Shown: piece after piece, positions 5,894 through 43,071 of the stretch
Position numbering within the stretch: the stretch's first letter is position 1
Layout: each line of letters begins with the position of its first letter
Source: Peronospora farinosa
Taxonomy: Eukaryota > Oomycota > Peronosporomycetes > Peronosporales > Peronosporaceae
Assembly (NCBI GenBank): GCA_947646735.1
Contig: CANTFK010000164.1
Coordinates: 1-64,000, forward strand
Length of the DNA: 64,000 nt
Direction of reading: 5' to 3'
Made by a program: the position numbers and the translations under genes
The notes under the pieces: model-generated
Databases searched by the model: none
The model's input: only the letters and a program-made list of their open reading frames with translations
Told to the model about the DNA's origin: nothing

Positions 5894-5988
5894 TTGCGCT
5901 TACCTCAACGTAAGCGCGAATCGCAGAAAGTTTCTTCTCGACCAACGGCGTAACTCCGAACCTGCTCAGTTAGACTTAACTGAGCAGC

Positions 5989-6879
5989 ATGGACCCTAGG
6001 CGTCCACGAAACAATGTCTCTGACATCCAGAACTGGGAACACCAAGAGACAATCCGTAGAGAGCAGGCGCCGCAGGTCATGGATGGGGACTTGAAACCGT
6101 GGCGCTTGAATGGTCTTGAAGGTGCTGTCGAACCCGAGCCACTGGAGGTCATGAAGGACCTTTTCACGCGATACCGTACAGTGAGAGGCAAGGCAACGAA
6201 CAACGTATATACCGACGATGCGTTGCAGAGGTCTTGGTGTGCCTTCATCGGGCGCTGGAACGCGATCCGACGTGAAGGAACGTCCTTCACGTCCCTGTTA
6301 GACGGTCGCGAGGGAACGCGTGATAGATACGATAATGACGACCTACGCCGGCGCATCTATCGTATGACGTGTGACGAGTATCACCTTTGTTACGTCCACA
6401 TTCGTGAGGGATGTCCAACGTGCAACGTGGGCAGATCGCGACCGGTCTGGCAGGAATGGGACGACTTAGTGTGTGCGCGAGGCATGCCTGACCATATTCG
6501 TCCATGGATTGCCCGTTATGAGAGAAGCCTTTCGGAGATACAGGTGTCCGAGCTACGGCGAGTGAGAGCGCGTCCTTACGATCGCCGAGGGCTTTCACGT
6601 AGCCGAGGTCGTCAATTGTATCATCCATATGCTCCCGAGCCTCGTAATAGGTCTCGGTCTCGGAGTCGCTCGGGAGGTCGTCGCGGTTTCGTTGCTCGCG
6701 TGCATTACGGCTCACGAGATCGGGGATGGAACCGTCAGCGTCGGACGCGATCACCGTCTTTCTACGGGACTCGTAGTCGTCGACCACGTCCGGGACATCT
6801 TGGGACAGCGTACTTGATGGCTCCCATGTATCGTCCGCCGGGGAATATCCCAACCAGCGAACCCTGTAATGTTTCTTGA
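5989..6879 (+). CDS. Family E antisense gene, first open frame (296 aa), unknown function
   Basis: It starts with ATG 112 bp from the 3' LTR and runs opposite to gag-pol. Residues 1-200 look globular, with conserved-looking Trp and a Cys cluster (CDEYHLCYVH...GCPTC around residues 127-145). Residues 205-285 are rich in Arg-Ser (RSRSRSRS, RTRSPS), like RS domains of RNA-binding proteins. Its last ~200 codons lie antisense to the pol tail and chromodomain. The RS run is partly the complement of an acidic run in pol, so that part could be a by-product. The first ~100 codons have no overlapping gene, and the frame is unbroken while gag-pol is not. No family recognised. Confidence 0.55.
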   Translation: MDPRRPRNNVSDIQNWEHQETIRREQAPQVMDGDLKPWRLNGLEGAVEPEPLEVMKDLFTRYRTVRGKATNNVYTDDALQRSWCAFIGRWNAIRREGTSFTSLLDGREGTRDRYDNDDLRRRIYRMTCDEYHLCYVHIREGCPTCNVGRSRPVWQEWDDLVCARGMPDHIRPWIARYERSLSEIQVSELRRVRARPYDRRGLSRSRGRQLYHPYAPEPRNRSRSRSRSGGRRGFVARVHYGSRDRGWNRQRRTRSPSFYGTRSRRPRPGHLGTAYLMAPMYRPPGNIPTSEPCNVS

Positions 6880-6975
6880 CATGCTTCTTCATGGGCGCCG
6901 AGTTATTAGTCGGCGCCTGGGACTTGTGATCCTCTTGATCGACAATCCGGTCGACAATCCAGCGTCGCGCACTCG
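6287..6975 (-). pseudogene. Family E pol C-terminus: chromodomain and tail
   Basis: The minus-strand frame reads WIVDRIVDQ, then YRVRWLGYSPADDTWEP, a canonical chromodomain, followed by an acidic Ser-rich tail (LPSDSETETYYEA). The frame remains open to 6287, but past about residue 120 the sequence no longer looks like a conserved protein, and the plus-strand antisense gene is the better candidate there. Chromodomains guide Ty3-type integrases to chromatin marks. Confidence 0.7.
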
Positions 6976-7395
6976 ATGCATCGACTAATGGAGGAGGAGC
7001 ATCACGACGGAAGGCCTCTGGCGATGAGCGCCGATTCTCGTAATCGGGCGCCTGTACAGTCGAATGATGAGCTGCGCCTACTCCGCACTGAAGCCGAGGA
7101 GTCGAAGAATGCCCTACTTGATGCTCGCGAGATGGCTGAGAGAGCTCAAGATCGTGCGGATGCTGCGACTGAGGCTGCTGAGCGGACTCGACGTGAGCAG
7201 CTGGTACTGGTTGAGCGCCTACGTCAACTTGAGACGACTACGTTCGGAGGGCCCCAGCAGATCGAGTCTGCACGCGTTCGGGCAGGACTTGGTCCCAGTC
7301 GTCGTCAAAGTCGTCGTCAAGGGATGTCGGATTTCGAGCCGGCACAGAAGAGCGGGGAAGATTCAAAGAGAGATCCGCCGGTAGGTAATCCTTGA
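6976..7395 (+). CDS. Family E antisense gene, second open frame (coiled coil, 139 aa)
   Basis: It opens about 95 bp after the 296-codon frame. It encodes a long heptad-rich helix (NDELRLLRTEAEESKNALL then REMAERAQDRADAATEAAER), followed by a basic tail. It lies antisense to the linker between integrase and chromodomain, exactly where the family D antisense coiled coil lies, and its stop falls just past the antisense of FYVGRLK, as in family D. It may be the C-terminal half of one gene with the upstream frame, split by a shift, stops or an intron. Confidence 0.45.
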   Translation: MHRLMEEEHHDGRPLAMSADSRNRAPVQSNDELRLLRTEAEESKNALLDAREMAERAQDRADAATEAAERTRREQLVLVERLRQLETTTFGGPQQIESARVRAGLGPSRRQSRRQGMSDFEPAQKSGEDSKRDPPVGNP

Positions 7396-8640
7396 GGCGC
7401 CCGACGTAGAACGTCGGGTGCAAACGCATAGATGTAGGTATTTCTAGCGTGTAAGCGTCACCATGCACCTTAACAACCCAAAATGGGCCAATATATCTTG
7501 GCGCTAACTTTTTAGCGCCCAAATTCGTCACTGAGGTGTTCGGTAATCCACTTGTTAATAACAATACTCTGTCACCTTCTCGAAATAACAACATATTCTT
7601 TCGACCTCTTCTGTCTGCATTCTCCTTTTGCTTATCGACTGTCTCTTGTAATGCATCACGCACAAAACGCGTGATTCCTTGTCGTAATAGTAGAAATTCG
7701 GTTACTGCAGCCAAACTTACAGGCGACGTATTCTCTTTTGGAGCAAAATTGGCAACGGGAGACGCGATGGAAAGCATCGCGTCAGGAGTCGATATGCCGT
7801 CGGCCACGAAATTACCAGTAGTAGGTGCATTGGTAGCAACCTTATGCGCATCGTAATCACTCAGCAATAGTTTTGGCGCAATTCCATCCGTAGATACTCC
7901 CCCACCAAGCTTGGAGACAGGGTGTTCTGAAGCTGAGAGAGCAAGCAGCGCCGGAACGCGAGGATGCCTCGAGTTGATAACGAAAAGGGAGTCAATCCGG
8001 TTGACGCATGGACAGCATTGTTGATTGCAAACTCTGCAAGTGGAAGAAATGAACTCCATGAAGAGAACGATGTTGCATAACTGCGCAAGACATCTTCGAG
8101 CACTCTGTTCACACGCTCCGTTTGCCCATCCGTCTCTGGATGGGCCGCCGTAGACATAAGCAACCGCGTGCCTAATAGCTGGAATAATTCGGCCCAGAAA
8201 GACGAAGTGAAACGCGGGTCACGGTCCGAAACAATAGATTCTGGCAAGCCGTGATGCCTAAAGATAATATCAATGAAGATCTTCGCTGTCGTCTCCGCCG
8301 TAATGTTGGCGGAGACCGGAGCAAATGCACCATTTTGCTGAATCGATCCACTAGAACCAATACGCCCGTGCGTTTCTGTTCATCCGGTGGAAGGCCAAAG
8401 ATAAAATCCATGCTGACCGAGCGCCAGGCTTCCGTAGCAATCGGAAGCGGACGCAATGGGGCTTGTGAAGACGGCGCGGGCTTCACACGCTGACAGGTTT
8501 TACAGGAGCGCACCCATTTCTGGATGTACTTACACATTCGCGGCCAGAAAAATACGCGAGAAATAGCTGCAAACGTCTTGTCGCGGCCCAGGTGTCCGCC
8601 AGATGGGCTGTCGTGAAACTCATGAACCAATCGGGCTCGA
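7238..8640 (-). pseudogene. Family E integrase, broken by frameshifts
   Basis: In order on the minus strand: the zinc-binding HHCC module (HEFHDSPSGGHLGRDKTF, SCKTCQRVKPAP), the catalytic core with Asp in SMDFIFGLPPD, Asp in IVSDRDPRF and Glu in TDGQTERVNRV, then the C-terminal module (ENADRRGRKN, PRYIGPFWVV, FYVGRLKDYLP). All DDE residues are present, but at least two frameshifts (near 8330 and 7990) split the frame. Confidence 0.85.
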
Positions 8641-10466
8641 AGGTCGTCATCAGAAGGGATTACGACACGCGGGGAATCAAAGACGTCAATAGTGTACGTC
8701 AGCAACGGAACGTCAAGCGCGTAACGCTTGATGTTGTCGCGTGTTGGTTTCGTCAACTTCGCGAGTAATTTTTCGCTCTGGTCCCTGAGATAGTTGATGA
8801 TTCCTGGATAACAGGAATCATTCGCGTAGGATTCAGCGATCTCAGTTCGGATCAAAAGCGCGGGGGTCGAAATCATCGCATTAAGCCCCAGGTCAATACA
8901 ACACACACAGATATCTTCGTCGTCATCAACATACTCCGTTTGATGACCCATATCCCGCCGAGGATCGTAATCAGGACGGCGAGAAAGCGCGTCAGCGAGA
9001 ATGTTATTCTTGCCAGGCTTGTAATGCACCACAAAATTATACTCGGCAAAAAATGACAACCACCGTGCCATACGCTGGGACAAGTGAGGACTCTTGACGA
9101 CGCAATGATGCGTGATCTGTGTAGATAGAAAACATCTTTTCGCCGAGCAAATATACTCTAAACTTGATTAGCGCGTAACGCATAGCCAGAAGTTCCTTGT
9201 CGTGTACCGGATAATTTTTCTCGGCAGGTTTCATCTGTCGTAATTAAAAACTCACGACGCGCTCTCGACCCTCGTCATCAAATTGCATGAGGGCACATCC
9301 TATAGCGAAAATTCTCGCGTCACATACGACGTGGAATGGCTTGGAGTCATCAGGTAGCATCAGCACCGTTGCCTCGGACAAGCTCTTCTTTACGGAGTCG
9401 AAGGTAGATTGATGTTCTGCCGTCCATAACCATACTGCATCTTTCTTGAGCAAAGTCGATAATGGCTGAATTAGCTCAGCATAGTTCTTCTTATACTTAT
9501 GCAAGTAATTCGCCAGACCGAGCCATTGACGTAATTCCGTTTGGTTCCTGGGTGTTGTCCAGGAACAGATCGATGAGATCTTCTCAGGATCATCGCGGAC
9601 ACCTTCCTTGCTGACGTAACAACCGAGTACTGGAATCTCGGGAGCGCAGAAGACACATTTCTTCAAATTCGCATACAATTTGTTCTCGCGCATAGCTTGA
9701 AACACCTGCTTCAAGTGTCGAAGGTGTACTTCCGTAGCGCTGAGCTTTTGCTCAGCGCGGCTGTGAACAAAAATGTCGTCAAAGTAGCTAGGTGCAAAGT
9801 CGCGAAGTGGGCGAAGTACTTGTGTCACCATCCGATTGAACGTAGCTGGAGCATTCTTAAGACCTTGTGGCATGACTAACCACTCCCAAAGAGTCCCGCT
9901 TGGGGTTCTGACCGCATTGAACGGAATGTCACTGTTCCTCACGAGGATCTGATAGAGCCCGTCTGTCAGATCTATGGAGCTGTAGATCTCGCTCCCGGAC
10001 ATGTATTTAATACCATGTCTTTTCGAGGGATAGGCGTTTGAGCCGGTATCGTGGCGTCATTCAGCTTGTTGAAGGCGTGCACAATGCGCCAACCGCCGGT
10101 GGCTTTCTTCACACAGAAAGTCGGACTCGAATGTGGTGAGATACTCTCGCGGACATGGCCAGCCTTGCGGCGACCCTCGAAAAATTCATCAATAGCGATG
10201 ACTTGGTCGCGCGGTAACGGCCACTGCCGTGTCACGCAATATTTCGATCCTGGCACGAGATCTATCTCGTGCCGCACACCACGATCCGCCGGAAGCTCAG
10301 CTGGAATTTTCTCCAGGAAAATATCGGCGTACTCACGGGCGATATTGTATACAGGGTTGCCCGAAGCACGAAGAGCATCCCAAGACTGTGCCGCGAAGCG
10401 TTCTTCGCGCGCTGATTTAGACTCGGCGCTCTTCGGGCGAGCCTCCAGAACTTCTTCACTGGCTGC
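8641..10466 (-). pseudogene. Family E reverse transcriptase and RNase H
   Basis: The minus strand reads RHEIDLVPGSKYCVTRQWPLP, then WEWLVMPQGLKNAPATFNRM, the catalytic YFDD (SYFDDIFVH), VLGCYVSKEGV, and RNase H motifs (VVCDARIFAIGCAL, YPVHDKELLAMRYAL, TDHASL, YKPGKNNILADALSRR). The YFDD motif is intact. A frameshift near 10000, a TAA at 9244-9246 and a frameshift near 9120 inactivate it. An upstream TAA at 10467-10469 separates it from protease. Confidence 0.85.
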
Positions 10467-11717
10467 TTAGGTCGCTGAAACGATGCACACTTGCTCGATG
10501 TCGCCGGCCTTAAGGCCATGGAGGAAGTCTTTCCATGTAAGGTCTGGCAGAGATGTGATATCTGCAGCAGTGCACGGTGGACTCGCTACCTCAATGTAGC
10601 GGCCACGATGTGGGGATCCCTCCACATATTCAAGCGCGAATACGGATTCCGTCACTTCGGAATCAAATGCATCAGCATGTTGACGTGAATTTCGTCGTCT
10701 CGATGATCGGCGTGCTCCTTTCTTGCGTTTTCTCTTTCGTCTCGAGCCCCTGCTCGAGCCTGGCACGTCGCTATCACAAGAGGATGATGTACCCCCCTCT
10801 AGACGTGGGAGCTTTGTCTCCACCACGTCGGTCTCATGCGGATCCGTAGTCCGCCCATTCTCGTCAATCAAAAGCGGTAGCTCGTCTTCGACCGATTCAC
10901 TTGTTTGCGGGAGCCTCTGCTCGACCGCCTCGATATTTATCGGGAGCCTCTGCTCGTCCGATGTGCTTTTATGCGGGAGCCTCTGCTCGACCGCCACGTT
11001 GAGAATCGGGAACCTCTGTTCGACCGATATCTGTGTGTGTGGGAACCGCTGTTCAACCGCCTCGTTGTGAATTAGGAACCCCTGTTTGACCGATGTCTTT
11101 GTATGCGGGAACCGCTGTTCGACCGCTTCGTTCTGTGGCTCCGTCAGTGTAACGGAACATACTGCGCACAGAAGGCCATCGCTCTCTCTGTGTTGACTAC
11201 TAGTCGTGGCGAGTTCGTTCACGACCCTGACGTGGGGCCAATCGGATGAAGCGACCAACAAATGAGTAAACACTTCACTGACGTCATATCCGCTTCGTCG
11301 TTTGACGGACCGAGATAGCCAATCTATCTTCGGCTGATACCGTGACAGCCACGGTATCCTAAGTATGCAATCGAATGCATAGTTCATCTCGTACACCAAA
11401 AATTCGTCGTTGCTCTGGAAACCGTCGAAAGTGTACGGTAAAACCACTGTTTTACGCGGGACACGTTTTGGGTGTCCATCGGCAAGTTTGACAACGATGT
11501 CACCTGGACCTTCTCGAACCGTGACAGTCGACGGGAGAAGGGACAAACAGGATGCACGAAAGAAGTTGTTGGAAGCGCCAGAATCCAACAAAGCTCGAAG
11601 TGGTCGCTTCACTCCAGCGACGATGAGACTGATGAAAATCAGTCTCGAATCATCGCGCATGGTGGTGGTATTGAAGTGGGTATGAATCACTTTGGCGCTA
11701 GGAGCCCGAGCTGCCAC
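10467..11717 (-). CDS. Family E protease and repeat-rich linker (open, ~416 codons)
   Basis: The retroviral-type aspartic protease site is intact (ALLDSGASNNFF), followed by the flap/second-half region (YEMNYAFDCILRIPWL). After it comes a linker built from eight or so degenerate repeats around EAVEQRLP (about 10810-11140), then a basic KRKRKKGARRSSRRR run, then the approach to RT (DLTWKDFLHGLKAGDIEQV). The frame ends at a TAA in what should continue as RT. Confidence 0.8.
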   Translation of the reverse strand: MAARAPSAKVIHTHFNTTTMRDDSRLIFISLIVAGVKRPLRALLDSGASNNFFRASCLSLLPSTVTVREGPGDIVVKLADGHPKRVPRKTVVLPYTFDGFQSNDEFLVYEMNYAFDCILRIPWLSRYQPKIDWLSRSVKRRSGYDVSEVFTHLLVASSDWPHVRVVNELATTSSQHRESDGLLCAVCSVTLTEPQNEAVEQRFPHTKTSVKQGFLIHNEAVEQRFPHTQISVEQRFPILNVAVEQRLPHKSTSDEQRLPINIEAVEQRLPQTSESVEDELPLLIDENGRTTDPHETDVVETKLPRLEGGTSSSCDSDVPGSSRGSRRKRKRKKGARRSSRRRNSRQHADAFDSEVTESVFALEYVEGSPHRGRYIEVASPPCTAADITSLPDLTWKDFLHGLKAGDIEQVCIVSAT

Positions 11718-12695
11718 CTGAGTACTCGGTCACCGGCGCAGGTGTACGACAGACAGCCGCACGATGGTCTGTCTTACCACAGCGAAAACACTTCAACGTA
11801 TTAGGATTGCGAATGTCGCGGCTTATGACTTTCCGCGACCACGAGAGGACTCGATTGCATCAATTTCCATTGGCTCTGGGCCAGACGTCCGGGAATTTTG
11901 TGACGCTGCGTGCAGGTACGACGACGCGACACTGTAATCCTCACGAAGCGCGAGGGCAATTGCCTCCTCGAGGGACTTTGACTCAGCACGTGTGAGGCAG
12001 TAACGCGTCATGCCCTCTTGCATACCAAAAATAAAGACATGGACTTATGAAGCCATGTCAATTGGCTGCGTGGTAATGCACGAAGCAAGATGACGTGTCT
12101 TCTGCACGTAGTCACGCATCGACAGCTTGCCCTGTCGGAGTGAGAAGAAATCTGCACGCAAGCGAGATTCATCTTGAGGAGGCTCGAAAGCCAGTCGTAA
12201 GTCACACTGGATATCGTCCAGCGTAGGAAACGCAGACTCATCTACGACGAGCTTTCCGAGAGTCCATTCCTTGGCTTTGCCGGCAAGACGAGACAACAGG
12301 AAATTGACCTTCGCCGTCGGAGCGTCAATTAATCTTGACGCTATTGCAATATCCACATCGCGAAACCAGCGATTGAGGGGGAGACGATCCGGACCATCAC
12401 CGGAGTACGTTGACGTCTCCATCTTGATAGCGTCATGGTGCGAAGTGCGCGAGGGAGTCAATACTCGCCGATTCGCTTCGGCGAGCTCGCGCACCATAAA
12501 GTCTTGGATGGCGGCACGTTGATCATCAGGCGTCGCTGTGCTCAGCAGCGACGTCACAATGGTTTCACCAGACACCGCCGCGAGGCGATGTAGTTCCTGC
12601 CACTCTACCGAGGTGAGATGTGGAAAAACAGAATGCTCCAGCGAGACAGCTGGAGCCACCGAAGACTCGCCCATGTTCATCTCGAATATGGTCAT
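11718..12695 (-). pseudogene. Family E gag with zinc knuckle
   Basis: It starts [11 protein letters not shown] on the minus strand. A capsid-like core follows ([43 protein letters not shown]) and a CCHC knuckle CFRCGKTDHRAAVC near 11765. A TAA at 12045-12047 and a 1-nt shift just before the knuckle break the frame. Gag would package element RNA in the cytoplasm. Confidence 0.82.
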
Positions 12696-12701
12696 TGGAA
12701 G

Positions 12702-12719
12702 GACTACGAAGTGCTACCA
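12702..12719 (-). other. Family E primer-binding site
   Basis: Two bases inside the 5' LTR, the minus strand reads TGGTAGCACTTCGTAGTC, beginning with the TGG expected opposite a tRNA CCA end. The first ten bases match family D at 53229. Confidence 0.65.
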
Positions 12720-12721
12720 GG

Positions 12722-13040
12722 TGTAACGGGCTAAGGACCCGTTACCGTCTTACACTAAAAGGGCGTTGAGGAAGCGCTCTTAATTAACTCGTAAATATCA
12801 CTCTGTTTTATTTTTGTTTTAGTTTTAATTCGCAGTAAGTGCGAATATGTTCCCTAGCTCATGCAAACCACACAATATGGAAGTCAATTTATTATTGGCT
12901 AATTATTGGGTCTGGCACCCCAATAATAAACCAATAATAAATTGACGCGCAGTATCCGCTAATCGGATACTGCCCTATGCCTACTTATTTAATTATGTAT
13001 TAATCCTATAACTACTTATGTAATAGGTAGACCCATTACA
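12722..13040 (-). repeat. Family E 5' LTR
   Basis: It starts TGTAACGGGC and ends ACCCATTACA on the plus strand; the ends form a TGTAA/TTACA inverted repeat. It is 319 bp, like its partner at 5558-5876. Confidence 0.92.
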
Positions 13041-13829
13041 AGAGGCGTCGGGCCTCGGAGGTTTGGAGGCTTTGGCGGGTACACGGGGTGACGGCCGCCT
13101 GGTCCGCTTACCAAGTGCTTTCGCCGGCCTCGAAGGGGAACCTGCGACCGGGGGCGAAGTCGCTGAAGGAGGAGCTGGTCTCGGAGGTGGCCCGTCGGAG
13201 AAGTCGACGTGGTCGAGCTCTGCGGCGAGAAGCGAGTACCGGCTTCGGATGTGATCGACCTTCCATCGCAGACGATCCACCAGTGCAGTCTCGCGCTGAA
13301 GAGCTTCGCGGAGTTGGGCCACCAGCCGAGAAGTGTCGCGCAACGTCTCTTCCAGACGCTCACAACGAGTGGACAATAAGGTGGCCGAAGGGGGAAGGAC
13401 ACCTAGCCGATCCTCTCAGTCTTCGATGCGGCGGGAATGAGCGTCCGCAAGAGCTTGCAATTCCCGCAGAGCTGCCCGTACGTTGACGGGTACGGAAGAC
13501 GAACGGTCAACCATGGAGGCCGGCGTGACAGGAGGATCTGCCGTCTCGGCAGGAGGCAAAGCGGTGGAAACAGGAGAGCTGTTAAGGACAACAGTTTTAG
13601 CAGCACTCAACGGTGAAGACAACGGCCCGGGAAGGTCGGCCAAGGACGCCTCTCCACATGGAGAGTCAACCGAAGGTGCGACGATGATCGAGGTCGGCTC
13701 TTCAGACGGTGGATCAGCGGACGGTGGGTCAGAACCAGGGGGAGACATGGCTGAACAGGCACGAGTTAGAGATGGATGAGCAACAAAGGGGACAGTAAAG
13801 GACCTACGTGACGAAGGAAGTGAAGACAT
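13041..13829 (-). pseudogene. Family C antisense gene, N-terminal part
   Basis: It begins ATG at 13829 (MSSLPSSRRS), 46 bp inside the 3' LTR, on the strand opposite to pol. Ser/Pro-rich residues are followed by a coiled coil (ALRELQALADAHSRRIED; then CERLEETLRDTSRLVAQL), then a basic Pro-rich linker (GKRTRRPSPRVPAKASK). One in-frame TGA (13416-13418) interrupts the coil. The family E insertion cuts it at 13041; beyond the insertion the frame continues at 5552. The family A gene also starts MSS, with the same order of parts. Confidence 0.65.
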
Positions 13830-13875
13830 GCGCGTGCTCAATCCGTTGTACGGTTCCGCAAGTTTAGGGGGCGGC

Positions 13876-14960
13876 TGTGGTGAAGTGCTAATTCTGTGAT
13901 GTGGAGGTCCCAGACTCCAGTTGGATTCGGAGTATAGGCCGTGGGTCAGGGACAGGGGACCAGAGAGACAGGGGCCTCGAAGGGGAACGACCGTTGGTGG
14001 AGAACAATCCGCAGGACCCACAGAAGAAAAATCAGTATCAGGGTACTGGTTAACCGGTTAACCGGTACCAAAGGGAGTTGGTCATGGCCCTTCATTGATC
14101 GACCTGGCTCCTCATTGATCGACCTGGCTCCTCATCGGTAGACCCGATCCCTCATAGGTAGACCTGGGTCCCTCGTCGGTAGACCTGGGTCCCTCATTGG
14201 TCGACCCGGTCCCTCATCGGTAGACCCGATCCCTCATCAGTCGACCTCGGCCCCTCGGGGTTCAGCCACTCTGGACCGATTAATACAAGGATCAGATTAG
14301 TCGACGCAAGGAATCAGAGCTTCAGGCAAGGATAGAGTAAAGGAGTTAAAAGGATAGGACTATATTAAATAATACTCAATTTGCGATCTACGTGGAACGA
14401 CTCCGTCACCCAAGAAGAACTTGTTCTAAGTTACTCACTGTTCCGAAAAGGGATATATTTTGGCCCCCCGTCAAAGACAGTTGTGTAGCGAGGTTCAGTG
14501 CAAAAAGAGCTCCAGGATATATTTGGCCTGCAACCTCGTTCGAGTAGCAACACCCCCCAAGACCCGCTATCGGAAGCGGTCTCCCTTAACTCACGGTACG
14601 GGAGCAAAGTAAATGTCAGGTGGTTGATACCCCTAAAACAAGAAGGAAAAGGCCAGGGACGACAAGCGCCCCTGAAGAATTTGGCTCGAAGTCCACTCTC
14701 GACAAGGTCGATCGAGTGGCCACCTACCGGCCCACCGAGTAAAGCATATCCACTCGAAGTCCCCCAGGTCTACCTCCCTCAAGGCAGACGTCTACATCCT
14801 CACCAAGTCCTCCGAAGAATGCAACTCGCCAGCCGACGGGTACACAAGGTGAGAGAATGTTCATACGCGGCATCGGGGTACCCCCTCCGACAGTCGGCAG
14901 TCCGGCACAGTCAGTGGTTTGGGGTCTCATCATACAATTTTGAGAACCCACTCCACCACA
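13876..14960 (+). repeat. Family C 3' LTR
   Basis: It is 1085 bp, TGTGGTGAAGTG to CACTCCACCACA, and similar throughout to 3866-4923. The ~20-bp minisatellite at about 14090-14250 has a couple more units than in that LTR. The plus-strand 165-codon frame from 14498 is again open. Confidence 0.9.
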
Positions 14961-22465: not shown

Positions 22466-23271
22466 TGTACCATCTCTCATGACCTGAGAAACGGTGAAGA
22501 GTACAAGTCGTGATCCGGCGGACCGCGATCCGATACTAAGTATTAGTACCGCGATCCGATATTAAGATGTTTTTAGATCCAAGCGAGGTAGCGATTCAGA
22601 TCGCGGCGATATTGGAGTGGACCACGTTACAAGATCTGATTTTTCCTAAAGGGTGATACGTGGCAATAGATCCTGAGATACAGATAGTCAAGATCATAGG
22701 GGTTGGTATTTGATTGGTTAACATTAAACATAGTTCAATTTGCTTCTAAGTACACGTGTCGACTTCTCTTCCGGGCTGGATTCTTTGGCCTCCCGACGTC
22801 TCAAGGAAGTCTACATACTACGCAAGTCATATCCCTGGATTGTTTGGCCAGGGATTGCAAGAATTTTCAACAAAACAAATCAAGCTGCGATTGGACGCAG
22901 AGGACTAAGAAGTCCAGATACAAGATCGCGAGACGGCTCAAGTGGTCAGAAGGCAAGCGGATCAAGTATCTACATTTTTGGACAAGGCGATCTCAAGGGA
23001 GATCAGGGCGACTCAAATAGAGCACCCCAAGAACAACTGCGATCGTGTGAGGAATTCCACGCGATCGCCCCCCCCACCTATCCCTAACACAATCAAGTTC
23101 AACATCGACTCAAGTCTACCGAGAAGAGAGCAACCCGCCCTACCGACGGGTACACAAGGTGAGGAAGGAAAGTTACACGGATACGGGGTACCCCCTCCGT
23201 TAGTCGGTCGTCCGGGCGCCAGTGGAGAGTTGGAATCGCTTCAGCAATTTTGCGAATCCCACTCCACCACA
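22466..23271 (+). repeat. Family A 5' LTR, upstream part uncertain
   Basis: From about 22600 to 23271 it matches the 3' LTR, ending CCCACTCCACCACA. The first ~130 bp differ from the 3' LTR start and lack its 18-bp repeats, so the 5' end is either diverged or truncated at the junction with family D6 (22465/22466). Confidence 0.7.
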
Positions 23272-23272
23272 A

Positions 23273-23290
23273 TGGTGCGCGTGCCCGGAT
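23273..23290 (+). other. Family A primer-binding site
   Basis: TGGTGCGCGTGCCCGGAT follows the LTR by one base. The identical site follows the LTR at 34424, and family B has it at 39114-39131 on the minus strand. Confidence 0.7.
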
Positions 23291-23443
23291 CTTCTGGTGA
23301 CTCGGGATTTCACCGTGAGTCCCTGAGAGAAGATGTAAAGGTCAAAATTGAACCTGGGATTGAAGCGTCAGCGGCAAAGGGATCACCGCAGACGTGTGAA
23401 GAAAAAAGATCCCCGGATCATCAGCGTTTTGGGAGGGGCGCAG

Positions 23444-24073
23444 ATGAGCAGAAAAAAAGAGGAAGATCGATCACTCGATCTGGAAGAAAAACCTCTATCC
23501 CCTCCCCAGGTCCTTTCGAGGACCCCTGCGGATCGCGTTGCAAAACGCGATCCGCTGGATGAAAATCCTACGGTTAAAACCGAAGGAAATTTATCCAAAA
23601 CCACTCCGAATTCGAAGAAGAAGAAGAAGAATTCGAAGCCATCTCGAGTGAAGATGAAGGCGCCTGAGTCGGATCATGATGATATCGACGTGAAGCCAGC
23701 GCATGAGGAAGACAAGGCGAAAGGATGGCAACTGGATCAGCTGGAATGGTGTTTTCATTGGAAGGCGCTTAAAGATCTGTTGTCAAGCGATCCCGTTCTA
23801 AAGATTTTGAAACCGAAGTTGATTGGATCGCTACGAGGACCAATTTCAGCTCCCATTCCGACACCGAACCAGTTGGAAGCGATCCGTCGGCTTATGGAGT
23901 TGCTCCAGAACGCTGGATTCACCGCTGGAGCTTTTGACGCGCAGGTGCTGTTGGAATGCGATCATGATCGAGTGATCCAAGCAGGGCGATCTCTTTTTTC
24001 GAAGCAAGTTCTGCTGATTGGGGAACGCGATCCGGTGGATCAGACGATCCAGCCGATTGCAGATATTTCATAA
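23444..24073 (+). pseudogene. Family A gag, matrix-like first part
   Basis: It starts ATG at 23444 (MSRKKEEDRS). A highly charged region with KKKKK is followed by a helical domain (FHWKALKDLLSSDPVLKIL, AIRRLMELLQNAGF) homologous to family B at about 38430-38640. The frame ends with a stop at 24071-24073, before the capsid part. An upstream in-frame extension to 23348 lacks an ATG. Confidence 0.7.
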
Positions 24074-28990: not shown

Positions 28991-30826
28991 ATTGGCTAGT
29001 ATCGCATTGCAACGAGAAGAGGAGGCGAGTGTGACTACGGATGAGGATCGTCGAGATTTAATCACGCTTAATCGGTTAAATGAATTGCTAAAGCCTCAAG
29101 AAACCAAGTCAGTGGTTAAAGTAGCGGCGATCGCTCGATCACCACGAACAAAACGTCAACAACCACAGACTTTGCAGGAAGAAATGGTGCAGCAGATGAG
29201 AAGTGATCGCATACAGCGTGCCCAAGACGAAGAATGTTGGATCGCTAATTCTTAAGACATATTTGGTCGGTGACATCTCGACATTGAAGGTCGAGGAAGC
29301 GAAATCATGTGCCAAGATGGCTGATGATTATGAAGTGGACGAAGATAATTTGTTACATTTGTGCCCTGGAACCACAACGAAATCCGAAGATCGGGACGAA
29401 ATCGCTCGTCTGGTGGTACCCGAAAATCTGCAGGAAGATTTTCTGCATCACTATCATTCTAGTTTGAAAGGGGGTCACCAGGGAATTGGGTGAACCTACC
29501 AGCGAGTTATAGCGCATTTTTACTGTAGAAGTCTATACCAAGTGTACAGCGCTATGTGAATCCGTGCACAAATTGTGAGACTGGAAATGGTCGTCCCGTG
29601 ATTGATTGAGAATCACCGGGGAATCTACAGTCTACCTATCCTTTTCAAATAATCGCCATGGATCACATACCATCTCTGCCTAAATCATTCAAAGGAAATA
29701 CCAAGTTACTTATCTGGGTGGATTTATTTTCTGGCTACGTGATCGCCAAAGCAAGTTTGTCGCGAACAGCCCAAACTATCGCTGAAAATTATGAAGAGTG
29801 TGTTTTCCGTCGTTTTGGTGTTAGTGAAGCAATACGTCATGACCGAGAGCCCGGGTTTATGTCGGATTTTTTTCGTGCGTTTAACCGAATTATTGGACAG
29901 AAGCAAAGGGCAACGATGGCATATCGCCCTCAAGCGAATGGTACTGCGGAACGTATGGTGCAAACTCTGACTCGTGCATTAAAGATGTATGTCTCTGACG
30001 TTAATCAACAAGACTGGGATGAGTATGCCGAACGTCTAACTTTCGCGATCAATACCGCCAAGATCGGGTGCGCGGCGAAACGCCGTTTTTCTTGATTCAT
30101 GGTTGGGACCCGAGATCTACGTTGGAAGCCACATTACCATTAGGGAGTACTAGGCGTCGGGATCGCGATCCACGTAGGTGGCGATATCATGTGCAGCGGC
30201 ATTATCAGCAGGCGAGAGAAGCAGTAAATGAGAGACTCAGGACTGCGATCCAAACACGTGCTGATCGCCACAATGAAAATCTCAAGCCTCACGAAAATGA
30301 ACCAGGGGTGCAAGTCTGGTTATATTTGGATCGTGTGAAAGAAGGGCACGCTCGAAAGCTAGCACATATGTGGCATGGACCTTTTCGAGTAAAAGAAATG
30401 TGTGGAGATCACGCTGTCCGCCTGGAGATTGCTGGTACGCCATATCGATTATTTCCCGTCGTACATATATCTAAGTTGAAGAGAATAAAAACGTTCCCCG
30501 ATCGTCCAAAAAATTTGCTGACGATCGAAGAAGAATATCGATTCGATTTTGATAAAGCACTTTTGCCGGAAGATAGTTTTGAAGGTAATCTGGGAGACGA
30601 TGAATTCGAAGTGGAAAAGATTGTGATTGTACGATCTGATAGAAAGAAACGTTTTGGACGAGTACATAGATAGTTTAAAGTCTACTGGAAAGGTCATGCT
30701 AAACCATCCTGGGTGGATGAAGCCGACTTAAATTGTGGTGCCCTATTGCGAGATTTTGAACGTGGCGAGATTAGCCGGAATCGTTTTGAAGTGATGCAAT
30801 CACATGAAGAGGGATCTGGTGGCTAA
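28991..30826 (+). pseudogene. Family A integrase and chromodomain
   Basis: A linker (28992-29255) precedes the zinc module (HHYHSSLKGGHQGIG; C-terminal Cys pair near 29560). The core (29658-30095) has Asp in LLIWVDLFSGYV, Asp in IRHDREPGF and Glu in ANGTAERMVQ. The C-terminal module (LYLDRVKEGHARKLAHMW) and chromodomain follow (FKVYWKGHAKPSWVDEADL). Stops at 29491-29493 and 30671-30673 and a shift near 30080 break the frame. Confidence 0.85.
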
Positions 30827-31035
30827 CGGAGATCGAGTGTTGGGAATGGTATGATATGCAAGAAGGTTGCATATGGTGGTGAAAAGGAAATTTGTGTATT
30901 ATGAGTATGGCGATCGAAGGTCTGGGAGACTGGATCGCGGCTGAGGAAGCCTAACAAAGAAGACCATTTTAACGAAAAGGAGAAACAAAATGAAATTGTA
31001 TTGAACGGTCAAGAAGTGTTATCGGATCATGAATA

Positions 31036-33281
31036 CTATTTGGGAAAAAAATTACTGGATAAACGGGCGAGAGATGAACCGGGGTGATCCGCGATAGAGG
31101 ATCGATATTGGTTCCGCCAAGGCTCCGCAGAATCCAATAACGACAGTGCAGTAATCAGGTCGGGAATGTTTTTCTGCTTGCAATCCAAACCAGGATACCA
31201 TACTGGTATTTCGGAAGACTGAGGGAAATGGAGGAAAAATGGATCCAACAAGATATCCAGATCGCAGTGCCCAATGATTATTCCCCGAAGAACGAATCGA
31301 AGGACTGTTTACCAACGGGGCCAGATCGTAATCGACGTTGTTTAAGCTACCGGTAAAACTTCGCCAATTCTGGATCGTTTTCACGCTGCTCCTTCGATAG
31401 GTACAGCGGATGAGTCGATTCCCAAAGCGCTTGCCGGTGTCGATCTTCAAAATCAAGAAAAATAATGGACTTTTAGCTCGACGAATCACCCAGTCATCGG
31501 AATTAAAACTGGGGTGACCAAGGTATCAAGCGATTTCCATGGTTCCTGCTGCAATTTGCGCCATAGTGATCAGCCTGGGCGTCCAAAGAGAATCAGATGG
31601 ACGTAATCAATACGGGAAAAGGGTATCTTTTGGACTTGGAAAGATGTTTGTACAAAAAGTCTACTTCCAACTCGGCCACGCAGGTAGTGCTAATTTTTCG
31701 GGCTGACCATGGCGCAACCTGAGCTGACGATCGAGGAATTGTTTGCGATATCCAGGGGTCCATTGATTTCGCGACTTCTAAGTAGCCGGTAGATCGGCGT
31801 ACTCGTGTGGTAAGAGCAATATGTTGATCTTCTCACGGGATTCGCTGGTGAAACTGACAGCACCCTCAGAATCACTAGAAGGTTCTCCAAAAAGATCCAC
31901 TTTCGAAATTTTAGTCGAGGCGAATGGAGCAGGCGCACTGGGAGTAAATCAGACGTGGTACTGGAGGTGTCGACATTGATCATGGAACCAGGCGATCCAA
32001 CGTGCGGGAAAACCTCAGTTGCCGAGCCACGACGTTTAGAAGAAGAACGCGATCTAGATAGAGCTGCAAGCAAGGAATCTCCAGAATCAAAACATTCTTC
32101 GTCGTCACTCGACTCGGAGGAAGGGACGTAGGAATCGATTTCTTGTTTTTCCCTTTCGAAGGTGTGGGAAGTTTCTTCGTTTCTTTCGATTTCGAAGGGG
32201 TGGCAGATCTTTTCCGTGGGTTTGCTTGAACTTTGGAAGCATCCGGATCACGTTTTTTAAATCCGGCAGATCGGGCTGGTACATTATAACTAGCTGATTT
32301 AGCGGATCGTGCTGGGACATTTCTCTGAATCGATGGAATTTTGCCTTGGATGGAGGCAGGCGGGCCCGAAGAAGAAGAGCCTACGGCTCGAGGACGCTTG
32401 GGTGGAAGTCCGACCGCTGATGGGGACGAAGACCGTTTGCTTTTCCGGGACGCCGAGCTATCTGGTGCAGGAGGATCAACTTGGATGATTGGGAGTGATC
32501 CAGAAGCTAGCTGGGCTAAATGGGATCGAAGTGCATCCCGATCGTGGACGGCCTGATCGCGTTCCATTTCCCGATCCAAGATTTTTCGCCGTAGCTGATC
32601 CAAAGAGACATCTTAACGAAGATTCTCATTCAAAAGATCATCATGGGTGTCTTGGAGTGTATCAAGACGATCCTGTAAAGAAGCTAGCTGGATCTGAAAC
32701 TGATCCTTCAAGACTTGCTCAGTCACGGCCATTTCTCGTCGGTGTCTCTCCTGAGCATGCTGCTTCGCCGTGTTTGCTTTTAGTAAAGCGGTTTTCAAAC
32801 TTGCAATCTCTTAAGATTGATCCTCTCGCAGGCCCAGTTCATCTTTAAAGTCTTGGGCTTTCTGGATCGCAGTGTCGTAACGTTGATGAAGCCGCTTGTA
32901 GCGATCCAAGACGAATTTGGACAGAGGAGTTGCTAATTCCCGGTAGGATTGCAATGCACGTTCCAACCGATTAGAGCGCACTTCTTGCTCTCGTAGAGAA
33001 TCTTCCAAGGAACGATAAGTGTACACGACGGCAGTTTGGGCGTCCAAACGATTGTATAATGCCGCGATTGACGACTCCAAGATAGGACGATCCATCACGG
33101 GCGAAAATTCTACACGAGTAGAAGGAAGCAAAATCCGCGATCCGGAAGAATGTTTTATAGGCGTATCGGGAGTCAGGCAAGACTTTTCAGGTCTCGAAAC
33201 GGATGAAGAAATTGCAGATATGACGGAATCGTAACCATTCCGGCTAACAGGGGAAGCGGCCGCAGACGAATACGAAGACAT
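31036..33281 (-). pseudogene. Family A antisense gene
   Basis: It starts ATG at 33281 (MSSYSSAAASPVSR), 81 bp inside the 3' LTR and opposite to pol. A long coiled coil follows (LEDSLREQEVRSNRLERAL; LASLQDRLDTLQDTHDDLL; DREMERDQAVHDRDALRSHL), then a basic Ser/Pro/Lys linker (about 32150-32450), then the C-terminal domain with QALWESTHPLYLSKEQ, GHCDLDILLDP (31237-31272) and IPVWYPG. Stops at about 32812 and 32614 and shifts near 32070 and 31300 break the frame. The C-terminal domain matches family C in protein while the DNA has diverged. Function unknown. Confidence 0.65.
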
Positions 33282-33362
33282 GAGGACGACTGGGGCGATT
33301 ACTGTGGATGCGATGCATAGTCTGGCCAACACTGTATGCCGGCTAACGGTGCAGGGGGCGAT

Positions 33363-34424
33363 TGTGGAAGAGCGGATAAACAAATTTTGTGGAGTGTAGA
33401 TCACGATCCAAGTTATGTGGACCACGCACCCAGGATCGATCGCGATCCAATGTGCAGAAAGCGCGAATCCGACTCAGAACTGCGATCTGACTCAGAACCG
33501 CGATCTGGCTCAGAATTGCGATCCGACTCAGAACCGCGATCCGACTTGGAACCGCGTTCCGACTCAGAACTGCGATCCGATTCAGAAGTGCGATCCGACT
33601 TGGAACCGCGATCCGACTCAGCACCGCGATCCAACTTAGATCGCGATCCAGTTCACAAGGATCACGCATTATGAATCGAACGTGATTCTGATCTGATACG
33701 CGATCTGATTCGGATCGCGATCCAAGGATATGGCAAGATCGCGGATGGATCGGGATGGCAAAGGCAATTGGGGTGGACCACAGATCGAGATCTGATTTTT
33801 TTCTGAAAAGGTGACACGTGGTGATAGATCCTGGAATACAGATAGGCAGAATCGTAGGTTTCGAGTTTTGATTGGTTAACACTAAACAGAGTTCAATTTT
33901 ACTTCTAATACACGTGTCGACTTCTCTCCGGGCTGGATTCTTTGGCCACCCGACGTCTCGAGGAAGCCTACACACTGCGCAAGTCATATCCCTGGATTGT
34001 TTGGCCAGGGATTGCAAGAACTCTCAACACAACTCAACTGCGATCGGACGCAGATATAACAAGTAGGGCAAGGCGAAGCAAGTGCAGGACGGATCGAGTG
34101 GTCAGAAGGTTCTGCTTAAGTGGTCAGAAGATTCAAGCTTCGTTATATTGGATAACCGTGATCGATTGGGAAGACCACACCAAGTACTCGGTAGATCTTG
34201 TGAAGATTTCCACAAGATCACCAAAGCCCTCTATTACTAACCCAATTAGGATCAACATTGACTCAAGTCCACCGAGAAGATAGCAACCCGCCCTACCGAC
34301 GGGTACACAAGGCGAGGAAGGATATATACACGGAATCGGGGTTTCCCCTCCGTTAGTCGGTCGTCCGGGTGCCAGTGGAGAGTTGGGATCGCATCAGCAA
34401 TTTTGCGAATCCCACTCCACCACA
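33363..34424 (+). repeat. Family A LTR shared by A1 (3') and A2 (5')
   Basis: It runs from TGTGGAAGAG to CCCACTCCACCACA, 1062 bp. It is followed directly by a primer-binding site and gag of a second copy, so it serves both copies. Confidence 0.8.
33465..33652 (+). repeat. 18-bp minisatellite in the family A 3' LTR
   Basis: About ten copies of a unit like CCGACTCAGAACTGCGAT. The 5' LTR of the same element lacks this array. Confidence 0.85.
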
Positions 34425-34974
34425 ATGGTGCGCGTGCCCGGATCTTCTGGTGACTCGGGATTTGTCTGTGAGTCCCTGAGAGAAGATGTCAAGATCAAGA
34501 CTGAACCTGGGATTGAAGCGTCAGCGGCAAAGGGATCACCGCAGACGTGTGAAGAAAATAGATCCCCGGATCATCAGCGTTTTGGGAGGGGCGCAGATGA
34601 GCAGAAAAAAAAGAGGAAGATCGATCACTCGATCTGGAAGAAAAACCTCTACCCTCTCCCCAGGTTCCTTCGGGGACCCCTGCGGATCGCATTGCAAAAC
34701 GCGATCCGCTGGATATAAATCCTACGTTTACAACCGAAGGAATTTAATTCAAACCACTCCGAAGTCGAAGAAACAGAATTTAAAGACTTCACAAGAGCAG
34801 ACGAAGACGTCAAAATCGGCAATTCGCAATTATCAAGAGAAGAAATCAGCAAAAGGTCGTAAAGCGAAGTTTGAACTGTCGAACATAGAGGAAATGGAAC
34901 GATGTTTCCACCAGATGGAGTTGAAGACGTTATTGTCAAGCGACCCAGTTTTAAAAATCTTGAAGTCGAAGGGA
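34425..34974 (+). pseudogene. Family A2 partial copy: primer-binding site and gag start
   Basis: It repeats 23272-23820 closely: primer-binding site, the gag ATG at about 34597, and the helical domain (MERCFHQMELKTLLSSDPVLK). One extra A in the A-run after the ATG (eight where A1 has seven) shifts the frame at once. The copy stops at about 34974 where family B begins. Confidence 0.8.
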
Positions 34975-39132: not shown

Positions 39133-40208
39133 TGTGGTGGGGTGGATTCTCAAACAGCGTAGGAGATCCACAAACACACACAGCGCCGGACTGCCGACTT
39201 ACGGAGGGGGTACCCCGATACCATGTCGTGCCAAATTTGGGTCTCACCTTGTGTACCCGTCGGCTTGGCTGGTCTTGCTCCTCGTTAGACGCAGAGGACT
39301 TAAAGACTTGATCCTTGTATGGAGGGACTTGGTGGTCCTCGAGTGGATATACTTCACTTGGGGGTTTCTTGTGCTCAATCGACTGTGTCGAGAGCAATGC
39401 ATCTGGTACTACGTACCCCTTTTGTGTCTGACTGTTCTTGGACCCCTTTGTGTTCTTCCCCGTAGGAAAACCGCTTCCTATAGCGGGTCTTGAATGGGTA
39501 TGAACCCACAGGCCAAAATACTTCCTGGGGTTCGTTCGAGCTTGAATCTTACCAAACGACTGTCTTCAACGAGGGGGGGGCAAACAAATCCCTTCCTCGG
39601 AACAGGTGGGTAGATCGAAACAAGTTCGCACTTGAGTCTTGACACCTCAGGCCAACTATCCTGAGGTTCAACTTGCATAGCTTGAGCCGTCTAACACCTG
39701 CTGGACGTCGGGGGCCAAAGGGTATCCCGCCCGGAAGAGGTGAAGCGACGTAGAGTCTATGAGGAGGCGCTTAGAGCTGCCACGTGTAAAGCAAATTCGA
39801 GTGTGTGTATTTATCTTATGCTTTGTATGTTTTTTCTTGCCTAACCTTAACCCTTTGATCTAGATAGTGCCCCGTGTCGACTCTTGGAAGAAGAATTGGC
39901 TCCTTGGCACCCGTACTTTCTGTACTCTTCGATATTCTGTGTACCGATTCTGCACCCTCGGAAATTACCCCTGGGCCCCGGTGCCCTGGGCCCTGTTACC
40001 CTGGTATCTTGGAACCTGTTTCCGGGGCCTGGGGCCTGTGCTGGCTCTGCACTTCTGGGTCCTTATTTTCTTAATAAGGCGGGGCCTGGTCTGTGGTTGT
40101 AAATCCGCGGGGCCGGGTCGTGGTCACTCTCTCGGGGAAATGACAAGAAATTATCTTGTCCTCTGTTCCATTTCCTTAAGCTCTAACTTTTCCTGGCACT
40201 TCACCACA
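39133..40208 (-). repeat. Family B 5' LTR, minus orientation
   Basis: On the minus strand it runs from TGTGGTGAAGTG to CACCCCACCACA, 1076 bp. It is an inverted relative of the LTR at 42166-43071; the ~1.96 kb between them is family B antisense gene. Confidence 0.85.
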
Positions 40209-42165
40209 GAAGTAAGGGTCAAGAAGAATGTCAAGGTCACAGTGACCGGACTTCATCACTTCCGAGATCTTCTCAAGCACTTCCATATAAGCCCTCGCAG
40301 CCTTGGCCCGCCGTTTCTTCCTCGCATTGAAAAGCCGAGAGACGTATCGGCACTTCGTACGAAGTTCAGCAGAGAGAGGAAGGCGATGTCGATCTTCCAA
40401 TAGACTCTGACGTGATGCGTCGACATAAGCATCATGGAGCTTCACGAAGTCACTGAATCAGCCGGACACTGAGAAAGAAATAGGGTTTACAATCACGACC
40501 CCCTGGGCCCAAGGACGCGAATTCATCAAAAGTTAAAGTTGAGAGTCCTTCATGAGCTCCTCGCTCCAGACTGGGGGGCCTCGAGACTTCTGGTCATCGG
40601 AAGCAGCAATCCAAGACAGTGGAAGCGATACCTTGAACCAAAGATCCTCTGACGTCAGCTGGGTGATAATGAGGGCCCCTACCTGGGAAACTGACCAGGG
40701 GGCAACGTCTTCCGCGTCGAACGCGCTGGGTGTCGAAGAACCAGGAATGGAGGAGCTCTGGATGTTATGGTATGGAGGATCTTCACGGACAGTATCCTTA
40801 TGGATGGAACCTTCGGATGTTGGTGCGGGACCCTTTCCGGCTAAACCCTTGCTGCTGGGACCCTTGGATGTTGATGCGGCACCCTTTCGGCGGGGACCTT
40901 TAGGCGCCGAAGTATTATCCTTGCTAGTGGGACCTTTGGCCGGTGGCTTCCTCTTGTCGTAGCTAGACTCGTCACTATCAGTCTCAGAGACCGGACCAAC
41001 CATTTTCAAGAATTAGTCTGAGTACGCTGTACGAGCCTTCTTTTTATTTGACGAACTAGAAGCTGCGTGGGAGGTACGAGGTGACGGAGACTTCGAGGAT
41101 CGAGTGGGAGTCTTGTACTTGGCCTTGTTTGACAGGTCTATGACCTCTGGGCCGAACTCTGCAGTAGAGGGTACGGGGCCGGAGCGAAAACTGGAAGCCC
41201 GCGACCTAGCCATTGCGGGGAATCAACGAGTCGTCACTACTGCTATACTCTGTCCCAGATGATCTCGGAGGATACGTGGCTTTTCGCTTAGGAGGGGACC
41301 GAAACTTGGCTGAAGGCTAACACGATCTTTTCGTCGTTCTGGAGCTCCGGGCGCTGGTCGTGGCTGTAGTCGATTAGGCCGCCGTGCCTCAAGCCACCGG
41401 CAGCTGTTTCTGCAGCTGGTCACGTTCCCGGAAGAGGGACTTCACGCGACTCTTGTAGTTGGCAACCTCTCTTTGGAGTACCGACACTTGTTTCGACAGT
41501 GCTTGAGGACTGCGAAGTGCGTCCAACTTAGACTCCAGCGACCGAATCTCAGCCGAAGACTTTTGACAGCCTCGTTGTACTGGTCCTTCCAGTACTTGAT
41601 CTGGAATCGGAATTCTTCCACTTTCCGAGAATTGTCCACCCGTTGGGCGAGTGCATCCCAGTACTCGGCAATAGCCAGCTTGTCCACTTCATGCTCGTGG
41701 ACCAGATTCCGGACCCAAGACTGTATCCGGGGCGCATGGGTCACCTCTAATTCCGTGAGGTCGTCTACGCGACGCTGTAATTCCGCGGTTCGGCGATGTT
41801 CTATCTGGTAGGCCCGTTGGAGGACCCTGTGTTCTTCAGCGAGGGTCTTCACAGACTGGGCCCGTTCCACCGCTACACGTAAGACTTCCCAAGCTTGAGA
41901 GACCTCCAGATAATTGAAGGCTCCCCGAAAAGTTCTACGTTCGGGGCGACCTCGTCAGGTTCAGGTCCAGAAAGCGCGGAGAAAGACCAACGGTCAGGTG
42001 CTTGGGACCCGGTGAAAGGAATACGAGAAGTCACTGGCGAGTACAAGACTTGTGAGTTGGTGAACACACAATCAACACAGAGCCACTTACTGTTAATTCG
42101 AGGAGTTTGAACAAGGGTGCACGGGGTCTTGCCGCAGATTGGAAGACCAGCGCGCAGGGGACAGC
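40209..42165 (-). pseudogene. Family B antisense gene (B2), cut at its C-terminus
   Basis: Read on the minus strand from the plus-oriented LTR at 42166. The N-terminal frame (to 41873) contains FSALSGPEPDEVAPN. A coiled coil follows (KTLAEEHRVLQRAYQIEHRR, AELQRRVDDLTELEV), then a Ser/Lys/Gly-rich linker (KGPSSKGLAGKGP), EDVAPWSVSQVGAL, and the C-terminal domain FNARKKRRAKAARAY with GHCDLDILLDP (40212-40247). Stops and shifts separate these pieces. The LTR at 40208 removes the end. It belongs to a plus-strand element different from B1. Confidence 0.65.
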
Positions 42166-43071
42166 TATGATAAAGTGCCAAGGAAATCAAAGCTTGTGGC
42201 AAGAGAATTGCCAGTCACTAGTGACCACAACACGGCCTCGCAGATCCACACCCTCACACCAGGCCCCGCCTTATTAAGAAAATAAGGACCCAGAAGTGAA
42301 GAGCCAGTACAGGCCCCAAAGCCCCGAGGTCCGAGAGCCCAGGGTACAGGGCCTAATGCCCGAGGATGCAGAATCAGTACACAGAATATCGAAGAGTACA
42401 GAAAGTACGGGTGCCAAGGAGCCAATTCTTCTTCCAAGAGTCGACACGGGGCACTATCTAGATCAAAGGGTTAAGGTTAGGCAAGAAAAAATATACAAAG
42501 CATAAGATAAATACACACACTCGAATTTGCTTTACACGTGGCAGCTCTAAGCGCCTCCTCATAGACTCTACGTCACTTCACCTCTTCCGGGCGGGATACC
42601 CTTTGGCCCCCGACGTCCAGCAGGTGTTAGACGGCTCAAGCTATGCATGTTGAACCTCAGGATAGTTGGCCTGAGGTGTCAAGTAAGTGTCAAGACTCTA
42701 CGACCCGCTACAGAAAGCGGTTTCCCTACGGGGAAGAACACAAAGGGGTCCAAGGACCAAGAACAGTCAGCCACCAAAGGGGTACGCAGTACCAGGTGCA
42801 TCGATCTCGACTAAGTCGATTGAGCCCAAGAAAACCTCGGGCCTAAGTGAAGTATGTCCACTCGGGGACCACCAAGTCCCTCCATACAAGGATCAAGTCT
42901 TTAAGTCCTCTGCGTCTAACGAGGAGCAAGACCAGCCAAGCCGACGGGTACACAAGGTGAGACCCAAATTTGGCACGACATGGTATCGGGGAACCCCCTC
43001 TGTAAGTCGGAAGTCCGGCGCTGTGTGTGTTTGTGGATCTCCTACGTTGTTTGAAAATCCACTCCACCACA
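42166..43071 (+). repeat. Family B LTR, plus orientation
   Basis: It is 906 bp. The start is degenerate (TATGATAAAGTGCC against TGTGGTGAAGTGCC) and the end is CCACTCCACCACA. It is the 3' LTR of the element whose antisense gene lies at 40209-42165, and abuts family D at 43072. Confidence 0.8.

Follow-up and report, generated by a model that had tools for sequence, protein, structure and literature searches.

A Conserved Antisense Reading Frame under Purifying Selection between pol and the 3' LTR of Chronos-Like Ty3/gypsy Elements in Peronospora farinosa

Introduction

What is the open reading frame that lies on the strand opposite to gag-pol in several Ty3/gypsy retrotransposons of the oomycete Peronospora farinosa, and is it a gene? 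The question is raised by a 64,000-nucleotide stretch of this genome (assembly GCA_947646735.1, contig CANTFK010000164.1, positions 1–64,000), which is called the window below. An earlier note on the window had proposed that three families of such elements, A, B and C, share an antisense gene between pol and the 3' LTR that is conserved as a protein. Most antisense accessory genes described so far in LTR retrotransposons come from plants.

Results

Copies of the Antisense Gene in the Window

An antisense gene does lie opposite gag-pol in families A, B and C; the window copies are decayed, and long open frames are found elsewhere in the genome (Table 1). The family A gene, which the earlier note had placed at 31036–33281, is real on the minus strand at about 31039–33281, but the copy is broken: counting from the MSS start, an in-frame stop follows residue 156 and another residue 222, and the frame changes further on. 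The words QALWESTH..LSKEQ, GHCDLDILLDP and WYPG, quoted for the protein match, are readable on that strand. The span of 40209–42165 given for family B does hold an antisense match on the minus strand, but at 40206–41870 and in decayed form; no pol end was found beside it within the window. Family C had been described as one gene in pieces (3414–13829). Antisense C sequence is present there, but there are three copies, C1, C2 and C3, rather than one. The C-terminal domain that had been quoted for family C is real, but it belongs to C1 and not to C2. The element that splits C2 is another Ty3 element, at about 5555–13018 (element E below). The first 71 residues of the open frame, retained in C1, would be leader if the start proposed here (MSSLPSS) holds.

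The protein match between families A, B and C exceeds by far what chance would give. Queries taken from the C-terminal domain find members of the other families at E values of about 1e-11 to 1e-20, and the last 90 residues of A, searched against their own genome, find themselves at 8e-59 and the next best of at least 150 matches at 1.4e-57.

The short copies C1 and C3 lie within an inverted pair, 3415–4924 and 62491–64000, of 1510 bp and 99% alike. In the region 39133–43071, the B copy is flanked by inverted arms at 39133–39362/42842–43071 and 39638–39994/42327–42683, which are 95–96% alike. These arms look like LTR-like sequence in opposite orientations, and no pol end was detected alongside.

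Table 1. Coordinates in the window of the antisense copies, their upstream blocks and the parts of the host elements.
Feature	Positions	Strand	Basis or remark
Antisense ORF, family A, decayed copy	31039–33281	−	MSS start, coiled coil, Ser/Pro/basic linker, C-terminal domain
Last 90 aa of A, conserved C-terminal domain (GHCDLDILLDP ... WYPG)	31039–31308	−	Genome search
Antisense ORF, family B, decayed	40206–41870	−	Alignment match
C2 part 1, residues 11–384 of the P0002 open frame	13041–14057	−	Proposed MSSLPSS start inside, after the conserved block
C2 part 2, residues 384–603	4896–5555	−	Nested Ty3 element separates it from part 1
C1, residues 1–71 and 594–739 only of the open frame	3426–4077	−	Two ends, mutually out of frame
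C-terminal end of pol beside C1, convergent	2756–3136	+	Alignment match
C3, shaped like C1, right end of the window	63338–63998	+	Alignment match
Conserved block CCACARYYGYCCCCTGC, family A, putative core promoter	33351–33367	−	86 bp upstream of ORF start
Conserved upstream block of B, 2 mismatches	42154–42170	−	Pattern match
Conserved upstream block of C2, 2 mismatches	13864–13880	−	Pattern match
C-terminal end of pol, element A	30434–30823	+	Convergent with antisense ORF, 216 bp between match ends
Left terminal direct repeat, element A	22611–23625	+	LTR and probably some internal sequence; 83% identical to right copy
Right terminal direct repeat, element A	33767–34778	+	Direct-repeat comparison
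18-bp tandem repeats between conserved block and 3' LTR, element A	33450–33658		Repeat scan

The Host Elements

The boundaries of the terminal repeats of element A are approximate because the stretch shared by the two copies seems to extend beyond the LTR end. Since the shared sequence appears to continue past the right LTR, what seems to come next is the beginning of a further element of that family. Tandem repeats lie upstream of the antisense gene, with units of 18 bp in A, 27 bp in A2 and 20 bp in C.

The pol frames of four families encode, in order, reverse transcriptase (RT), gypsy RNase H, a second RNase H, integrase and a chromodomain. PF00078, PF17917, PF17919 and PF17921 score above cut-off in all four pol ORFs, as does the second RNase H (PF13456, RVT_3), which follows the gypsy RNase H. 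The integrase core (rve) is detected in all four, below its cut-off in each. The C-terminal chromodomain (PF00385) is found in four of four at E 3e-4 to 7e-7 and exceeds its curated cut-off in two. Chronos elements of the Peronosporales/Pythiales are described with RT, gypsy RNase H, second RNase H, integrase and chromodomain (PMC5348765). The elements studied here have this domain order, with the RT–RNase H–INT arrangement of Ty3/gypsy elements, the second RNase H, the chromodomain at the C-terminus and a host in the Peronosporales, so that we call them Chronos-type, a provisional assignment by domain layout. The main text of the Chronos paper makes no mention of an antisense gene (PMC5348765).

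Copies across the Genome

The genome searched comprises 46.85 Mb in 274 contigs. The queries were the last 90–96 residues of the A, C and B proteins, and each gave at least 150 matches (150 scored from 401, 396 and 357 candidates, respectively). Of the 150 places listed for the A query, 23 fall in frames that are open for 705–973 codons, stop to stop, and long open antisense frames of about 700–970 codons occur in at least four families of this one genome. The position is nearly constant. The end of pol lies tail-to-tail with the antisense gene, on the opposite strand, at 49 of 50 loci, or 44 of 45 distinct places once five places counted twice are merged, and the match ends are 189–315 bp apart. 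These loci are the 30 best matches of the A query (families A and A2) plus 20 stretches chosen across all families, and are not a random sample. At the lone exception (L045), a search of the 10 kb gave no pol end. The LTR side of the antisense gene is seen in element A.

The last ~50 residues of an A protein (L048:4147–5517) and an A2 protein (L031:2189–4807) are nearly identical by eye, and the whole domain is 67% alike. This suggests that recombination between families may have occurred near the pol junction.

Selection on the Antisense Frame

dN/dS was computed by the Nei–Gojobori count on pairs of long open antisense ORFs. The A2 pair gave 0.28, A2 against A 0.18, three C pairs 0.35, 0.27 and 0.33, and the B pair 0.25; C against B gave 0.33 at a dS of 2.4, which is nearly saturated. 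The D pair gave 0.66, a weak constraint that is not significant (Fisher p 0.15). The other four of the five pairs subjected to Fisher tests had p of 9e-13, 3e-14, 2e-6 and 1e-5. Two near-identical A2 pairs gave 1.04, on 4 and 12 changes, and are uninformative; three further pairs were saturated. When the same ORFs were aligned as DNA, the ratios were 0.20–0.35 except for L050 (0.43, with DNA 49% identical) and D (0.94, from a faulty alignment). For pol of the same elements the ratio was 0.11–0.60 over five pairs, three of them saturated.

The other five frames of the reference ORFs carry 10–38 stops each, the three sense frames 10–31. The one sense frame that mirrors the antisense frame has a lowered ratio too, as codon geometry predicts, but it has stops throughout. 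A ratio near 1 in the antisense frame, the outcome set beforehand as speaking against a coding gene, was not seen in the informative pairs, which except for D lie at 0.18–0.35. The antisense protein frame is under purifying selection. Constraint on the encoded protein, which the earlier note had offered as the explanation of the conservation, is thus supported, with Fisher p from 3e-14 to 1e-5 in four of five pairs.

Descent and Relatives

In trees of eight copies, the C-terminal domain of the antisense protein branches as pol does, with the unrooted topology ((A,A2),D,(B,C)). Since the two trees agree, the antisense gene was inherited with the element and was present in the ancestor of the families. 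It also follows from the congruent trees that A, B and C, as families of one element group, carry one old gene and do not represent three gains. Between A2 and C the identity is 65% in pol and 38% in the antisense C-terminal domain, and so the antisense protein evolves faster.

A set of 5.8 billion proteins, in a search that reaches only relatives sharing short exact words, holds 35 distinct related proteins (20, 20 and 7 rows), 29 from Phytophthora or Peronospora and 6 without an organism name. All 35 are entered as hypothetical, uncharacterised or unnamed proteins. A family C protein shares 98% identity, across its C-terminal 253 aa, with an unnamed protein of Peronospora effusa. A class of "hypothetical proteins" in the annotation of Phytophthora and Peronospora is explained in this way as transposon genes, which affects gene counts. 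One environmental relative (P0008, predicted 586 aa) has RT and RNase H domains fused to the antisense C-terminal domain and is probably a rearranged copy.

Features of the Antisense Protein

A structure model of an 871-aa relative, built with 23 sequences, has a mean pLDDT of 62 and a pTM of 0.41. It has a coiled coil at 118–354, a disordered stretch from 358 to about 600, and a helical C-terminal domain in a block with pLDDT mostly 60–91. A short helix at 517–524, within the low-confidence stretch, covers a conserved LAALSxSRSxxRR motif. Modelling the C-terminal domain by itself gave a poor result (pLDDT 53). Among the 23 sequences, ten columns never vary: W706, W743, H747, C796, D797, L802, D803, F806, H808 and P820. 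Short basic clusters occur in five of five proteins by a simple scan without a chance control, and the net charge of the family C protein is about zero.

No Pfam or NCBIfam family exceeded its cut-off in the antisense proteins scanned, among the matches listed. The C-terminal domain had no match in PHROGs and no sequence match in the PDB at E up to 10, and fold comparison gave no match; no DNA-binding family or fold was recognised. The view of the earlier note that no family with this domain is known agrees with the searches of Pfam, NCBIfam, PHROGs and PDB sequences. A crude scan found no strongly hydrophobic 19-residue window in five proteins. An Env-like product, which would be encoded in sense orientation and have a transmembrane segment, does not fit this result or the antisense orientation of the gene.

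A Conserved Block Upstream of the Frame

A conserved block, ACTTCNCCACARYYGYCCCCTGC on the strand of the antisense gene, lies upstream of the antisense ORF. Its CCACA core precedes the proposed ATG by 86 bp in A (window), 90 bp in A2 (L031), 89 bp in D (L035) and 75 bp in C (L036), placing it 75–90 bp before the start in four of five subfamilies. For family C the proposed ATG is the MSSLPSS start, and the open frame continues further upstream. In B (L039) the frame opens 100 bp after the core, and the first in-frame ATG follows the core at 310 bp. In this copy (region L039:2307–2617), that ATG is well inside the open frame, far from the block. Downstream of the block in the window B copy, a GTAAGT-like word seen by eye hints at an intron.

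A 26-mer of A2 recurs in A, D, C and B with 5, 5, 4 and 5 mismatches, while 300 shuffles per region never gave fewer than 8–9. The best shared 26-mer overlaps the block in all ten region pairs with 2–8 mismatches, the match of A to B (8) being weak. Genome-wide, 439 sites match the block with at most one mismatch, and the reversed pattern has none. The C-terminal domain lies 1.6–3.5 kb downstream on the same strand for at least 32 of 61 block sites on contigs C1–C50, for 0 with the strand flipped, and for a mean of 0.9 and at most 4 under random placement (400 kb per contig assumed). The 61 sites were drawn from the first 100 of the 439, and the domain lists came from the A, B and C queries, none from D. 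Because the domain matches were those listed, without a D query, 32 of 61 is a lower bound.

Transcription starts in P. infestans are reported 32–144 nt before the ATG, with a median of 50, for 121 genes (PMC3599244). The block is a putative core promoter by its location, which is the usual one for core promoters in oomycetes. In none of the five upstream regions did the older oomycete initiator consensus occur above shuffles, and A2 alone, among the families aligned, has a YTCANTYY-type site that overlaps the block. A sense-strand role for the block is possible.

Discussion

The Most Probable Reading and Its Rivals

We read the antisense ORF as a genuine protein-coding accessory gene of Chronos-type Ty3/gypsy elements, whose product would be a nuclear coiled-coil regulator expressed from its own promoter. 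We give this reading a probability of about 0.55. Under it stand the coding capacity, the position, the long open frames, the purifying selection, the joint descent with pol and the conserved upstream block, all shown from the DNA. Several results count against it: the older initiator consensus did not stand out upstream, no DNA-binding family or fold was recognised, the C-terminal domain modelled poorly by itself, the net charge in family C is near zero, and the D pair is weakly constrained. From these we infer the promoter, the nuclear location, the contact with DNA or chromatin and the regulation of the element. In this scheme a core promoter of the gene's own, just inside the 3' LTR, would drive its transcription, and the product would be a soluble nuclear protein that dimerises via its N-terminal coiled coil. 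The basic patches and the C-terminal helical domain would contact DNA or chromatin, and the protein may regulate the element's own expression or integration, as is proposed for plant antisense ORFs (aORFs) and reported for retroviral HBZ. A nuclear coiled-coil accessory regulator is the most likely product.

Two other protein functions have to be weighed. VANC proteins of plant VANDAL transposons counter host silencing, and a comparable factor acting against host chromatin silencing would, by this analogy, be expected to evolve in an arms race. The antisense domain does change faster than pol, and several A2 copies are about 98–99% identical in DNA and have therefore spread recently; but many accessory proteins evolve fast too, and we consider this role unlikely. 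We rate at the same low level a structural or particle component, that is, a second Gag-like protein in place of a regulator. The coiled coil and basic linker would suit assembly on RNA, and the gene is retained with pol across families, yet a separate antisense unit would uncouple its dosage from that of Gag, and no gag family appears among the Pfam matches listed.

Improbable by a wider margin is an antisense RNA as the functional product, pairing with the 3' end of the genomic RNA to feed or limit RNA silencing, with the ORF incidental. Convergent genes could yield overlapping transcripts, and a role of double-stranded RNA is discussed for plant aORFs (PMC7264820). However, it is the protein frame that is selected (0.18–0.35 in informative pairs except D), and the domain can be aligned between families, which makes RNA unlikely as the sole function. 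Least probable of all is an origin outside the element, as a host gene that was captured or as a piece of an unrelated nested transposon that is carried along. Insertions inside these elements are indeed present in the window, but the position is fixed in 44 of 45 places, the descent is congruent with that of pol, and the 35 relatives include no named protein.

Comparison with Known Systems

The earlier note had pointed to antisense ORFs at the same site in some plant Ty3/gypsy elements, and the literature agrees: the plant aORF-3R of Grande (gene23), RIRE2 and Retand, with TRP28 (PF04195), follows pol and precedes the 3' LTR, on the strand that does not encode gag-pol (PMC11963269, PMC7264820). 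The plant gene is reported to be retained in most copies, with tandem repeats there in about half of Retand; the Grande antisense protein is described as nuclear and its gene as having its own promoter, and the function of the plant antisense genes is called unknown (PMC11963269, PMC7264820). The oomycete gene has the same position between pol and 3' LTR, the antisense strand and the tandem repeats. It differs in its oomycete host, in the chromodomain of pol and, comparing the proteins by sequence, in its conserved domain. TRP28 was found in none of 10 pieces at E up to 1 and in none of 4 proteins at E up to 0.1.

Retand belongs to Tat. Tat elements carry two RNase H domains (PMC5348765), and Tat4-1 and Grande are among the Retand queries (PMC11963269). 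I read the layout shared by the oomycete and plant Tat/Retand elements, namely an antisense gene, a second RNase H and tandem repeats, as probable convergence. A second protein family of this kind, in another eukaryotic supergroup, provides an independent comparison, in which features common to both are likely to reflect function. More tentatively, and on balance doubtful, the second RNase H and the 3' antisense regulatory gene might be a linked module with two separate origins, one in plant Tat/Retand elements and one in oomycete Chronos. Its unrelated proteins would do the same job, as an HBZ-like nuclear switch made from the element's antisense promoter and balancing transcription, silencing and integration.

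HBZ and the APH proteins of the HTLVs are nuclear regulators, each made from a gene that lies antisense at the 3' end of its LTR element (PMC10186651). HBZ of HTLV-1 shows, as an analogy only, that such an antisense design can work as a regulator. The oomycete protein differs in being much larger and in belonging to an intracellular retrotransposon. No bZIP domain exceeded its cut-off in the antisense proteins; bZIP_1 appeared below threshold in one B piece (E 0.13). An antisense ORF of Boty from Botrytis, cited in PMC7264820, has by its description the same position and strand as the oomycete gene, in a host that is also not a plant.

An Antisense Frame in Element E

Element E, on the minus strand of the window, has a chromodomain and, in the pieces scanned, one RNase H. 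It carries an antisense ORF of its own (5989–7395, plus strand), in two pieces, that begins about 135 bp from the 3' LTR and is apparently unrelated to the gene described above. This suggests that an antisense ORF can occur without a second RNase H. The predicted product combines a C..C motif with an SR-rich stretch and a coiled coil. At least 154 places in the genome match a 171-aa piece of it; many of them are in frames open for 449–502 aa, and they include a subfamily at 42–43% identity. A 101-aa piece from its second part falls in the same 471-aa frames. The antisense ORF of element E overlaps the chromodomain ORF of pol.
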